A DNA stretch of 64,000 nucleotides from Sedimentibacter sp. zth1 (GTDB lineage Bacteria > Bacillota > Clostridia > Tissierellales > Sedimentibacteraceae): contig NZ_CP071445.1 in NCBI RefSeq assembly GCF_017352195.1, positions 682,001 to 746,000 on the forward strand. Reading direction: 5' to 3'. This document shows, one piece after another, positions 40,225 through 45,435 of this stretch (position 1 is its first letter; each line of letters starts with the position of its first letter). The notes beneath the pieces were generated by a model. It was not told the DNA's origin. It made no database searches and saw only the letters and a program-made list of their open reading frames with translations. A program made the position numbers and the translations under genes.

Positions 40225-40457
40225 AAATAATAAACCGTTGATTAAGATTAGTAATCATAATAGCGACTTTACAGAGAGTTACCGATGGTGAGATGGTAAT
40301 ATGTTTAATTATGATGAATGGACTTATGAGGTCGACCTGAACTATTAGTAGGCGTCGACGGAAACTCTAACCGTTATGATGAGAGCATGTGTTTGCATGT
40401 AAAGAACTTTAAGGTGGCTTATATACTTCTATTCCTTTTGGAATAGGAGTTTTTTAT
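40225..40457 (+). ncRNA. T-box leader (tryptophan)
   Basis: Transcribed leader of trpS with T-box features: Stem I opening GAGAGUUACCGAUGGUGAG, specifier UGG (Trp) at 40319-40321 within GAAUGGA, and the tRNA acceptor-binding UGGC at 40415-40418, whose C pairs with the G discriminator of tRNA-Trp. A terminator hairpin follows directly. The T-box core reads AAGGUGGCUUA, weaker than the common AGGGUGGNACCGCG. Uncharged tRNA-Trp is expected to favour readthrough. About 424 bp separate natA and trpS, explained mostly by this leader. Confidence 0.88.
40425..40456 (+). terminator. T-box attenuator terminator
   Basis: ACTTCTATTCC pairs with GGAATAGGAGT (one G-U) around TTTT, followed by TTTTTATTTT. 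The acceptor-binding UGGC lies just upstream, so the antiterminator would compete with this stem. Confidence 0.88.
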
Positions 40458-40500: not shown

Positions 40501-41496
40501 TTGGAGAAAAAAAGAATTTTAACAGGTGATAGACCAACAGGAAAATTACATTTAGGACATTTTGTTGGAAGTTTACAAAACAGGGTTTTATTACAGGATG
40601 AATATGAAACATTTATATTGATAGCAGATATTCAAGCATTAACTACACACTTTCAAAACCCAAAACTTATTAATGACAGTATCTATCAAGTAACTATGGA
40701 TAATTTAGCTGTAGGGCTTGATCCAGATAAGGTAACTTTTGTTCAACAATCTCAGATACCATCAATTGCAGAATTAACTATTTTTTACTCTATGTTTGTT
40801 TCTGTAAATTCTTTACGTCATAATCCAACAATTAAAACAGAAGCTAAGCAATATGGTTATGATGATTTAACATATGGATTTTTAGGTTATCCAGTAAGTC
40901 AGACAGCAGACATAACATTTTGTAATGCGGATTTAGTACCAGTTGGAGATGACCAATTACCTCACATGGAACAAGCAAGAAAAATCACAAGAAGATTTAA
41001 TGAACTATACGGTAATGGTGAAACGATTATTAAGGTTCCTGAAACACTGTTAAGCAAGAATTCTAGATTAGCAGGTTTAGATGGAAATAGTAAAATGGGT
41101 AAAAGCTTAGGAAATGCAATATATCTATCTGATGATTCTAAAACTATTGATAAAAAAGTAAAGGCTGCTCTAACTGATAAAAATAGAATTGCATTAACAG
41201 ATAAGGGAAATCCTAATATTTGCATGGTATCTCAATATCACAAAGTATTTAATGAAGAAGAATATGAAAACACATGTGAAATGTGCAGAAGTGCTAACAT
41301 TGGTTGTGTTGCATGTAAAAAACTTTTAGCTAAAAAGTTAAATAATACGCTTGAACCTATTAGAGAAAGACGTAATTACTACGAGAATAACTTGAATTTA
41401 GTGAAAGAAATTATAATAGAAGGTACAAAAAAAGCTAATCTAATTGGAAATAAGCAAGTTGAAGCAATCAAAGAAGCTATGAAAATAATACTCTAA
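40501..41496 (+). CDS. trpS: Tryptophanyl-tRNA synthetase
   Basis: A 331-residue class I aminoacyl-tRNA synthetase. HIGH-like motif LGHF at TGKLHLGHFVGS near residue 14 and KMSKS motif KMGKSLGN near residue 195; the Trp pocket segment GDDQLPHMEQAR is intact. Start is TTG at 40501, with GGAGG seven bases upstream. Regulated by the Trp T-box before it. A Cys-rich segment near residues 255-275 (CEMCRSANIGCVACKK) resembles the extra Cys set found in some clostridial TrpRS, possibly a metal or cluster site. Confidence 0.96.
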   Translation: MEKKRILTGDRPTGKLHLGHFVGSLQNRVLLQDEYETFILIADIQALTTHFQNPKLINDSIYQVTMDNLAVGLDPDKVTFVQQSQIPSIAELTIFYSMFVSVNSLRHNPTIKTEAKQYGYDDLTYGFLGYPVSQTADITFCNADLVPVGDDQLPHMEQARKITRRFNELYGNGETIIKVPETLLSKNSRLAGLDGNSKMGKSLGNAIYLSDDSKTIDKKVKAALTDKNRIALTDKGNPNICMVSQYHKVFNEEEYENTCEMCRSANIGCVACKKLLAKKLNNTLEPIRERRNYYENNLNLVKEIIIEGTKKANLIGNKQVEAIKEAMKIIL

Positions 41497-43149: not shown

Positions 43150-43629
43150 TTATTTACTGTAATGTAAATTTTCATAAGATAAATTTTCTAGTACCTCTTT
43201 TAAATAAACATTTGCTTCGTATTTAGCCATTGGCAAATTCATATCCAAGTAATTACCACAGGATGCAGCATCTGCTCCTGGAACTTCACCCTCATAGTTG
43301 GCAATATATTTAAACATTTCTGTTATAATATCAACAACATTTTCTGAGTCGAATTCACCTTTAAATACAACGTAAAACCCAGTTCTGCAACCCATAGGTC
43401 CAAAATATATAGTTTTTTCATCATATATGTCATGATTTCTCAAAAAAGTTGCACATATATGCTCTATTGTGTGCAATTCAGCAGTATTCATAACTGGCAT
43501 CTGATTTGGCACCTTCATCCTAATATCAAATGTAGTTATGCAATTATCACCTATATAATCTTTTCTTGATAAATAAATACCTCTTCTCAGATTTAAATGG
43601 TTAACTTGAAAACTTTCAATTTTTTTCAT
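43150..43629 (-). CDS. luxS: S-ribosylhomocysteine lyase LuxS
   Basis: A 159-residue metalloenzyme converting S-ribosylhomocysteine to homocysteine and DPD, the precursor of AI-2. Metal ligands His53 and His57 (HTIEH) and Cys124 (ASCGNY) are present, as is catalytic Cys81 in GPMGCRTG. ATG 43629 follows GAGGAG. It is 37 bp behind mgtE on the same strand, probably in one transcript and so possibly under the mgtE leader's control. Confidence 0.96.
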   Translation of the reverse strand: MKKIESFQVNHLNLRRGIYLSRKDYIGDNCITTFDIRMKVPNQMPVMNTAELHTIEHICATFLRNHDIYDEKTIYFGPMGCRTGFYVVFKGEFDSENVVDIITEMFKYIANYEGEVPGADAASCGNYLDMNLPMAKYEANVYLKEVLENLSYENLHYSK

Positions 43630-43666: not shown

Positions 43667-45019
43667 TTATACACCAAGTAAAATTGCAGCAATTTTAAAG
43701 TATATAAGCAGTGACATAGCATCTACAATTGTTGTTATAAACGGACTAGCCATAACTGCTGGATCAAAACCTATTTTTTTTGCTAACATTGGTAATGTAC
43801 AACCTACTATTTTGGCTATAAATACTGTTACAACTAAAGTTATACAAACTGTTAATGCAACAAAAATTGTTACTTTATCAAATAATATTAGCTTAATGAA
43901 ATTAAATACTGCTAGTGTTACACCACATAGAAAAGCAACTCTAAACTCTTTCCAAGCAACTTTTAAAATATCTTTAAATCGTATTTCATCAAGAGATATA
44001 CCTCTAATAATTGTAACTGAAGCTTGACTACCACAATTACCACCTGTATCCATTAGCATAGGTATAAAAGATGTTAAAATTACACATGCAGATAATGCTG
44101 ATTCAAATCTTTTTATTATTATACCTGTGAATGTTGCTGATATCATAAGTAGCAATAACCAAGGAATACGACTTTTGAATATATCAAAAACTCTTGTTTT
44201 AATATATGGTTTTGTAGATGGCGTAATAGCTGCCATTATGTTTATATCTTCAGTTGTTTCATCTTCTAATACATCAATTGCATCATCTACCGTAATTATA
44301 CCTACCATACGATTCTCTGTATCTACAACAGGCATAGCAAAAAAATCATATTTGCTAAACTTGTGTGCCACTTCTTCTTGCTCATCCTGTGTGCAAACAG
44401 ATATTATGTTTTTTTCCATAATATCATTAATAATTTCACTTTCATCTGAAACTATAAGCTTTAATATAGACACTACTCCAATTAATCGCTTGGTTTCATC
44501 TGTAACATAACAAACGTTGATTGTTTCTTTGTGTATACCTGTTAATCTAATATGCTTGATAGCTTCATTTACATTCGTACTTGGCTGTAAGTTAACAAAT
44601 TCTGTAGTCATTATACTTCCAGCACTATTTTCAGGATATTGTAAAATACTGTTGATTAGTTGTCTTTTTTGTGTGTCTGCTTGCCTTAATATACGTCCCA
44701 CTACATTTGCTGGCATTTCCTCAACTAAATCTACTGCATCATCAATATACAGTTCATCCACTACTTCCTTTAACTCTTTATTTGAGAAGCCTTTAATTAA
44801 TCTTTCCTTGAAATCACTCTCCATTTCAATGAATGTTTCTGCGGCTTTTTCTTTAGGTAATAATCTAAATAACAAAGGAACAAGATCCTCGTTTATTTCC
44901 TCAAATAATATTGCAATGTCAATTGGCTTAATTGTTATAAAGATGTCTTTCAATGAGCTAAATTTCTTCTTTTCAGTAAGAGTTATAATAGTTGTAATTA
45001 ATGTGTTTTCTGTATTCAT
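43667..45019 (-). CDS. mgtE: Magnesium transporter MgtE
   Basis: A 450-residue Mg2+ channel/transporter. The N domain of helical repeats (residues 1-130, with LPKEKAAETF and DDAVDLVEEMP) is followed by a CBS pair (about 135-255) and five transmembrane helices (from residue 285) with the conserved DTGGNCGSQAS and PFITTIVDAMSLLIYF segments, the latter containing the pore Asp. All parts are intact. It is preceded by about 200 bases of structured leader RNA. Confidence 0.95.
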   Translation of the reverse strand: MNTENTLITTIITLTEKKKFSSLKDIFITIKPIDIAILFEEINEDLVPLLFRLLPKEKAAETFIEMESDFKERLIKGFSNKELKEVVDELYIDDAVDLVEEMPANVVGRILRQADTQKRQLINSILQYPENSAGSIMTTEFVNLQPSTNVNEAIKHIRLTGIHKETINVCYVTDETKRLIGVVSILKLIVSDESEIINDIMEKNIISVCTQDEQEEVAHKFSKYDFFAMPVVDTENRMVGIITVDDAIDVLEDETTEDINIMAAITPSTKPYIKTRVFDIFKSRIPWLLLLMISATFTGIIIKRFESALSACVILTSFIPMLMDTGGNCGSQASVTIIRGISLDEIRFKDILKVAWKEFRVAFLCGVTLAVFNFIKLILFDKVTIFVALTVCITLVVTVFIAKIVGCTLPMLAKKIGFDPAVMASPFITTIVDAMSLLIYFKIAAILLGV

Positions 45020-45217
45020 TTTTCTTAACCTCCATAATAATTCATTAATAGTATTTGAATACTACTAAGACAGGAGAAAAACACTAAATATTTAAAGTAG
45101 TAGCATGTACAGACAATTGCTAATTATATACTGCCTACTAAATATATCTGTCGTGCTCCCACCACTGCCTGGTTCCATGCCGCTCACCTCTCTTTTAATC
45201 TAAAATAATATTATAAC
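45020..45217 (-). ncRNA. Structured leader RNA of mgtE (unassigned class)
   Basis: About 200-base leader with an unusually GC-rich 5' part for this genome. Helices on the minus strand: GCAUG (45180-45176) with CAUGC (45107-45103); ACAGA (45151-45147) with UCUGU (45113-45109); hairpin ACCA/UGGU with loop GGCAG; hairpin UAUAU/AUAUA whose loop contains UAGUAGGCAG. CUACUA (45103-45098) can pair with UAGUAG in that loop (pseudoknot) or with UAGUAG at 45067-45062. I could not match it to the M-box or another class I know; regulation by metal is inferred from the gene it precedes. Confidence 0.55.
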
Positions 45218-45435
45218 CCATGTATTATATCATATTATCATATAATTAAAAAGTCTTTAAAGTAGTTTGTTTGTTTTTTCCTTTATTAGTATATGAAAAA
45301 AACTTTTATTTACTAAATATATTATGTATATTTCTTTTTTTGTTAAGTGAAAAAGTAAAATCCAGAGCAAACAGTCTACTCTAAAAACATCAAAACTCTA
45401 TAAACACGTTGAAATCAACAAATTTATGGCATAAA
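45218..45435. other. AT-rich spacer upstream of the mgtE leader
   Basis: It contains the mgtE promoter (45224-45252) at one end. The remainder has no convincing frame, repeat or RNA structure. Confidence 0.5.
45224..45252 (-). promoter_or_regulatory. mgtE promoter
   Basis: Extended -10 on the minus strand, TGATATAAT (45232-45224); the -35 region (TTTTTA at 17-bp spacing) is weak. Confidence 0.55.

Follow-up and report, generated by a model that had tools for sequence, protein, structure and literature searches.

In the literature searched, as far as its available excerpts go, the Mg2+-responsive leader peptides of Mg2+ transporters are enterobacterial. The excerpted report on Salmonella mgtQ describes an open reading frame (ORF) of 8 codons that lies between mgtC and mgtB of one operon and carries Asp2 and Glu5; when translation of mgtQ is aborted, the ribosome-binding site (RBS) of mgtB is freed (PMC8092293). 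MgtL, the leader peptide of E. coli mgtA, is described in similarly excerpted sources as acting by Rho-dependent termination (PMC11282234, PMC11552253), and early ribosome drop-off at low Mg2+ has been reported for it. As for structured RNAs before mgtE itself, the available part of one source reports the mgtE motif, a riboswitch candidate, exclusively from Thioalkalivibrio (PMC11109978); judged by this description only, it resembles the leader considered here in being a structured mgtE leader with a Shine-Dalgarno (SD) sequence at the base of a stem.

Here we consider the leader of an mgtE gene in the window, that is, the whole 64,000-nucleotide stretch of Sedimentibacter sp. zth1 DNA that was analysed. 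The gene product belongs by its domains to the MgtE family of divalent cation transporters, and luxS (43150-43629) lies behind mgtE on the minus strand. Directly before mgtE there is an upstream ORF (uORF) with an SD of its own. The features of the locus, including the segments for which pairings are predicted, are as follows.

45184..45190, minus strand: SD of the uORF, GAGGUGA (read from the sequence; SD score 7)
45092..45178, minus strand: leader uORF of 28 codons plus stop, MEPGSGGSTTDIFSRQYIISNCLYMLLL (translation; relatives carry corresponding uORFs upstream of mgtE; recovered by a model that did not include it)
45176..45190, minus strand: segment 1 (uORF SD and AUG), partner segment 2, -13.4 kcal/mol (swap support in the family; window-alone p 0.148)
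45094..45107, minus strand: segment 2 (uORF end), partner segment 1 (swap test and folding)
45144..45170, minus strand: segment M (middle of the uORF), partner segment 3a, -18.0 kcal/mol (swap test; window-alone p 0.016)
45068..45091, minus strand: segment 3a, partner segment M (swap test and folding)
45062..45082, minus strand: segment 3b (anti-SD), overlapping 3a, partner segment 4, -10.9 kcal/mol (swap test; window-alone p 0.164)
45018..45040, minus strand: segment 4, the mgtE SD (GGAGG, 45033-45029) and start region (sequence and pairing energy)
43667..45019, minus strand: mgtE, the regulated gene (MgtE_N, CBS and MgtE domains, by domain search)

This arrangement resembles mgtQ-mgtB, as the excerpted report presents it, in two respects: a short ORF with an SD and an acidic second residue precedes a Mg2+ transporter gene, and there are alternative helices, one of which sequesters the RBS of that gene (here indicated by swap tests over the family; in the window alone the helices are weak). 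In mgtQ-mgtB, aborted translation of the ORF frees the RBS and control is exerted at translation, and by analogy we propose the same here. According to the same excerpts the two differ in that the present ORF has 28 codons, precedes mgtE, a member of another transporter family, and occurs in Clostridia, and in that the window leader adds a pairing of the uORF's own SD. MgtL, as described in the excerpts, is also a leader peptide before a Mg2+ transporter gene, and its first residues are similar (MEPD... in MgtL, MEPG... in the window and MDS(G/E/D)PLP in the type B leaders described below), but it works through Rho-dependent termination and belongs to a different transporter family. The likeness to both systems is one of position, logic and first residues, and is meant as an analogy; no homology is claimed. 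A description of a leader peptide or uORF element before mgtE was not found in the open-access literature searched on mgtE leader peptides and uORFs, where the present cis-regulatory element thus appears to be undescribed.

The original prediction, which took this region to be a structured mgtE leader RNA of no known class with mutually exclusive pairings, listed a number of sequence elements, and all of them are present on the minus strand: GGCAG at 45169-45165 and 45135-45131, the GCAUG/CAUGC helix, CUACUA at 45103-45098, UAGUAG at 45140-45135 and 45067-45062, GACAG at 45152-45148 and CUGUC at 45073-45069. The GC-rich island that it noted is also real: GC content is 0.48 at 45140-45199, as against 0.13-0.30 in the flanking 60-base windows (0.13-0.17 between 45200 and 45359, 0.22-0.30 between 45000 and 45119). 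As for its two GGCAG hairpins, both motifs exist, and the minimum-energy fold contains only the second hairpin (AUAUAUU/AGUAUAU). What the prediction missed is the uORF, which contains most of the structured part; the GGCAG motifs are in fact codons 4-5 and parts of codons 15-16. The pairings M:3a, 3b:4 and 1:2 include the GCAUG/CAUGC helix and CUGUC, and the CUACUA/UAGUAG options are further alternatives to these three. The leader is unremarkable as a single fold: the whole leader is not more stable than shuffled sequences (z -0.27, with 79 of 200 shuffles as good), and the core at 45090-45195 is slightly more stable (z -1.86, 8 of 200). Upstream of the leader, a terminator-like hairpin at 45476-45439 (1 seen against 0.1 expected in the scanned stretch) probably ends the preceding gene, so that the leader likely begins its own transcript; promoter-like sites in the scanned upstream stretch are at chance level (5 against 4.1 expected).

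For comparison, we collected the regions upstream of mgtE from relatives in the same order and from 80 named loci whose MgtE is 58-66% identical. The latter loci define type A, with typical peptides of the form MDAGSS(S/T/N)GT...GRS. A uORF with its own SD is found in 75 of the 80, 72 by rule and three by eye (L067, where it is short and runs into the mgtE start, L094, which has Gly2, and L108); neither the rule nor inspection by eye finds one in L056, L092, L100, L124 and L128. Note that the rule required D or E at position 2; when this demand is dropped, 62 of the 67 uORFs with the best SD in the 80 loci still have D or E there. The order relatives define type B, with typical starts MDSGPLP, MDSEPLP or MDSDPLS, and a uORF was recognised in 23 of the 27 loci examined (20 by rule, three by pattern), the set leaving out L045, L049 and MgtE matches without a locus; the uORF is absent from L046, L047, L048 and L050. 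Among these relatives, L023 and L036, which belong to the family of the window, have MESG starts. The window is grouped with type A on account of its peptide and of its MgtE, which is closer to those of the 80 loci (66% identical to that of L051) than to any in its own order (at most 53%).

Two further observations concern the gene itself. The MgtE of the window is thus more similar to that of distant Clostridia/Oscillospiraceae loci than to any in its order, and gene and leader have possibly moved together by horizontal transfer. Among loci L021-L190, whose flanks are limited in length and some of which lack mgtE, a LuxS match is found only at L021, which is the window. The pairing with luxS, which the proposed control of mgtE-luxS includes, therefore looks local.

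When the 198-base leader is searched against 61 genomes, only short partial matches are found apart from itself, the best with an E value of 1.2e-5 over 27 bases. What is conserved in relatives is the uORF, which recurs before mgtE. A sequence-only model of the type A uORF start (R1, 40 sequences, window included) finds, in 398 genomes of the phylum, seven places with E < 1e-3, and all seven, the window among them, lie before mgtE; the following 23 loci (L138-L160) have no MgtE match. A corresponding model of type B (R2, 23 sequences) was run on 249 genomes of the order: each of the best 30 loci precedes an mgtE gene, 18 being in genomes outside the model, and 37 more places have E < 1e-4, beyond the 30 that were checked for mgtE. 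Finally, a model of 39 type A sequences from which the window was omitted (R3) finds a single place in the window's own genome at E values up to 10, namely 45193-45150 (E 0.038), which is the window leader. Some R2 matches occur in pairs about 1.5 kb apart (G619:C1:313273 and 314757; G622:C103:9556 and 11020), as expected of tandem mgtE copies with one leader each.

In line with the prediction, the leader matches no Rfam class: no family reaches the gathering cut-off there, and a permissive search yields weak, unrelated chance matches with E values of 0.085 and above. The sole match in the window is a T-box leader elsewhere, at 40229-40440 on the plus strand (98.2 bits), directly before an ORF (40501-41496) that we take to be a tryptophanyl-tRNA synthetase by its resemblance. 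The M-box (RF00380), whose conserved core the prediction had not seen either, is found nowhere in the window at the gathering score, nor at E values up to 10 in 44900-45400, nor in the genome of the window; among the 61 genomes searched, 13 contain a match above the cut-off. It differs from the present element in this respect and resembles it in lying before mgtE at related loci, sometimes in the leader that also carries the uORF. For example, when 26 order-relative loci are scanned against Rfam, the M-box is found in four (L024, L026, L027 and L029), all with a uORF; when 68 of the 80 type A loci are scanned, it is found in four, of which L082 and L118 have a uORF and L124 and L128 do not. 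Replacement of the uORF by an M-box is thus seen twice and coexistence in one mgtE leader six times, which suggests that the two may share a Mg2+ function.

Several features indicate that the uORF is probably translated. Within codons 2-6 both types vary most at the third base, a pattern that is gone from codon 7 on. For example, the variability of type A by base is 0, 0 and 0.87 bits at codon 2 and 0.49, 0.21 and 1.74 bits at codon 4, while at codon 5 the third base is only narrowly the highest (0.85, 0.61 and 0.95 bits). Gaps within the alignment of 40 type A uORF starts have lengths divisible by three, and CGA[AG], whose distance from the start varies, keeps the reading frame in 61 of 68 occurrences. 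Six leader peptides compared with the NCBIfam models give no match, and in Pfam the window peptide matches DVL below threshold (13.9 bits; cut-off 19.6). The suggestion that the leader is a metal-binding aptamer is not supported by these data: its conserved part looks like an ORF under translation, which makes the ribosome a more likely sensor than a metal-binding pocket in the RNA. An undescribed class of metal-binding riboswitch, in which the ORF is incidental, would fit the strong nucleotide conservation of codons 4-13 in type A, synonymous positions included; however, the variable third bases, the gaps that preserve the frame, the CGA codons lying in it, the lack of an Rfam match and the unremarkable single-sequence fold all speak against it, and we regard it as very unlikely.

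The codons used in the uORF are unusual. In type A, Ser is encoded by AGY in 125 of 132 uORF codons versus 410 of 1543 in the mgtE genes, and Arg by CGA in 79 of 117 versus 57 of 1317; this preference means that nucleotides, not residues alone, are conserved. In the leaders of L051-L130, AGU and CGA are favoured in codons 2-16, and both are rare in the mgtE genes of those loci. The bias may serve pairing or slow decoding. The residues vary by type: the early codons of the window include only E2 and P3 as acidic or proline residues and those of most type A loci only D2, and in type B D2, G/E/D4, P5 and P7 are common. Most type A peptides, having one acidic residue (position 2) and little proline, make poor ribosome-destabilising motifs. 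This scarcity, together with the codon bias, favours the same attenuator responding to another signal, such as pausing of ribosomes where AGU and CGA are read slowly, polyamines, the charging state of tRNAs or translation stress in general. We consider this version possible, though doubtful: the target gene is mgtE, at some loci an M-box takes the place of the uORF or accompanies it, type B starts are MgtL-like (D-x-(G/E/D)-P-L-P), and the codon bias may partly serve base pairing.

The pairings were evaluated by a swap test, in which the segment pair of each leader is compared with pairs exchanged between leaders. Column-wise covariation on whole-leader alignments was abandoned in favour of this partner swapping, since the pairing segments shift and are aligned inconsistently. 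In type A plus the window (n=73), the mean energy is -16.3 kcal/mol for own pairs versus -12.5 for swapped pairs in uORF SD:uORF end (better in 63 of 73, p 3.9e-10), -30.1 versus -24.7 in mid-uORF:downstream (60 of 73, p 6.8e-10) and -15.5 versus -12.8 in downstream:mgtE SD (57 of 73, p 8.5e-9). The leaders are related, which makes these p values optimistic, but five non-overlapping type A controls that share the same relatedness (seg1:post, mid:end, mid:sd, end:sd and seg1:sd) give p values of 0.39 to 0.96. Comparisons of end:post are discarded as evidence because their windows can overlap (p 0.17 in type A, 4.9e-3 in type B). Exact Watson-Crick runs of at least 7 are found in 30%, 36% and 22% of own pairs for the three helices, versus 7.6%, 18% and 9% of swapped pairs, and paired exchanges can be seen by eye (GGAAACG/CGUUUCC and GGGAACG/CGUUCCC; CCGACGC/GCGUCGG and GGCACAGC/GCUGUGCC). 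Against dinucleotide shuffles, 38, 37 and 17 of the 73 leaders reach p <= 0.05 for 1:2, mid-uORF:downstream and downstream:SD, versus 3 (seg1:post) and 5 (mid:end) for controls. For the window alone, the shuffles give p 0.016 for mid-uORF:downstream, 0.148 for uORF SD:uORF end and 0.164 for downstream:mgtE SD, and the control uORF SD:downstream (seg1:post) reaches 0.049; the case for more-than-chance pairing hence comes from the relatives and not from the window sequence alone.

Type B (n=20) behaves differently. The uORF SD:uORF end pair is better than swapped in all 20 leaders (p 8.8e-5) and downstream:SD gives p 0.04; mid:downstream gives p 0.52, so that M:3a is unsupported there, and the control mid:end deviates the other way (p 0.044). 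Against shuffles, p <= 0.05 is reached in 19 of 20 leaders for uORF SD:uORF end, in 1 of 20 for mid:downstream and in 3 of 20 for downstream:SD. The cis-regulatory mgtE leader with alternative pairings that had been predicted is thus supported by comparison with relatives, which, at the level of sequence, likewise supports conservation of the uORF and retention of all three pairings in the type of the window. That the downstream:mgtE SD pairing is kept over 73 leaders also bears on whether the uORF might govern transcription, for example through Rho-dependent termination as in E. coli mgtA. MgtL, according to the excerpted source, works through Rho (PMC11282234), but the retained pairing argues against such control here, as does the result that no intrinsic terminator is found in the window leader (Rho sites being outside that scan), and we consider it unlikely.

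Control at translation could then proceed as follows. Segments 3a and 3b overlap in the window, so M:3a and 3b:4 exclude each other. Ribosomes traversing the uORF would cover M, whereupon segment 3 would pair with the SD and start of mgtE and turn it off. Ribosomes that drop off in the first codons would leave M free, M:3a would form, and the mgtE SD would be released, turning mgtE on. The pairing 1:2 would shut the uORF start and hold the on state. By analogy with the drop-off reported for MgtL and with what the acidic codons of mgtQ suggest, low Mg2+ may cause the early drop-off, so that the Mg2+ transporter would be made when Mg2+ is scarce.

To simulate this, a ribosome footprint was placed at the uORF start, codon 5, codon 11 or stop, and the energy for opening the mgtE SD was computed. 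In type A, the mean opening energy is 4.8 kcal/mol for the free leader and 5.3, 6.9, 7.3 and 5.5 kcal/mol, respectively, for the four positions. With the ribosome at codon 11, the SD is harder to open than in the free leader in 58 of 73 cases and easier in 6, and harder than with the ribosome at the start in 56 and easier in 9. These energies imply that mgtE is open when M is empty and closed when M is occupied. Codon 5 is nearly as closing as codon 11, which agrees with drop-off but not with a stable arrest at codon 5. For the 23 type B leaders, the corresponding energies are 4.4 free, 1.6 at start, 2.1 at codon 5, 4.8 at codon 11 and 3.9 kcal/mol at stop (the last for 11 of 23 leaders): codon 11 equals free, and mgtE is opened by a ribosome that stays at the start (18 of 23 leaders then open more easily than when free), which is nearer to the mgtQ picture. 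In the window, the values are 2.5, 2.6, 3.0, 2.7 and 1.5 kcal/mol, respectively; the effect of a ribosome at codon 11 is negligible, and the window is a weak example, whose switch cannot be shown by folding alone.

In L027, L034, L035, L037 and L040, all type B, the uORF stop as judged by eye lies at or in the mgtE SD, for example TAAGGAGG, which suggests translational coupling or occlusion in those leaders. This position of the stop would also suit a constitutive leader ORF that merely couples or buffers mgtE translation and senses nothing, but a leader of that kind does not explain why alternative pairings are maintained, and we find it highly improbable.

Taken together, a conserved and probably translated uORF with alternative pairings likely controls mgtE, as judged from comparative sequence data. 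The chances that the uORF senses Mg2+ through ribosome drop-off are about even; the Mg2+ response and the direction of control are what we infer. The complete reading, a leader-peptide attenuator of mgtE translation in which early drop-off, presumably caused by low Mg2+, turns mgtE on, could equally well prove right or wrong. More tentatively, ribosome-based Mg2+ sensing may have evolved separately across Clostridia, controlling mgtE in place of the M-box or alongside it, with a Gly-Ser start and AGU/CGA codons as the sensor of the larger group rather than an acidic/proline stretch. A conserved mgtE leader peptide could explain how Mg2+ uptake is controlled in genomes that lack the M-box, such as that of the window, and a natural test is offered by the loci in which one of these two elements stands in for the other or both occur together. 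If the attenuator reading is true, it would suggest that ribosome instability was recruited more than once as a gauge of Mg2+.
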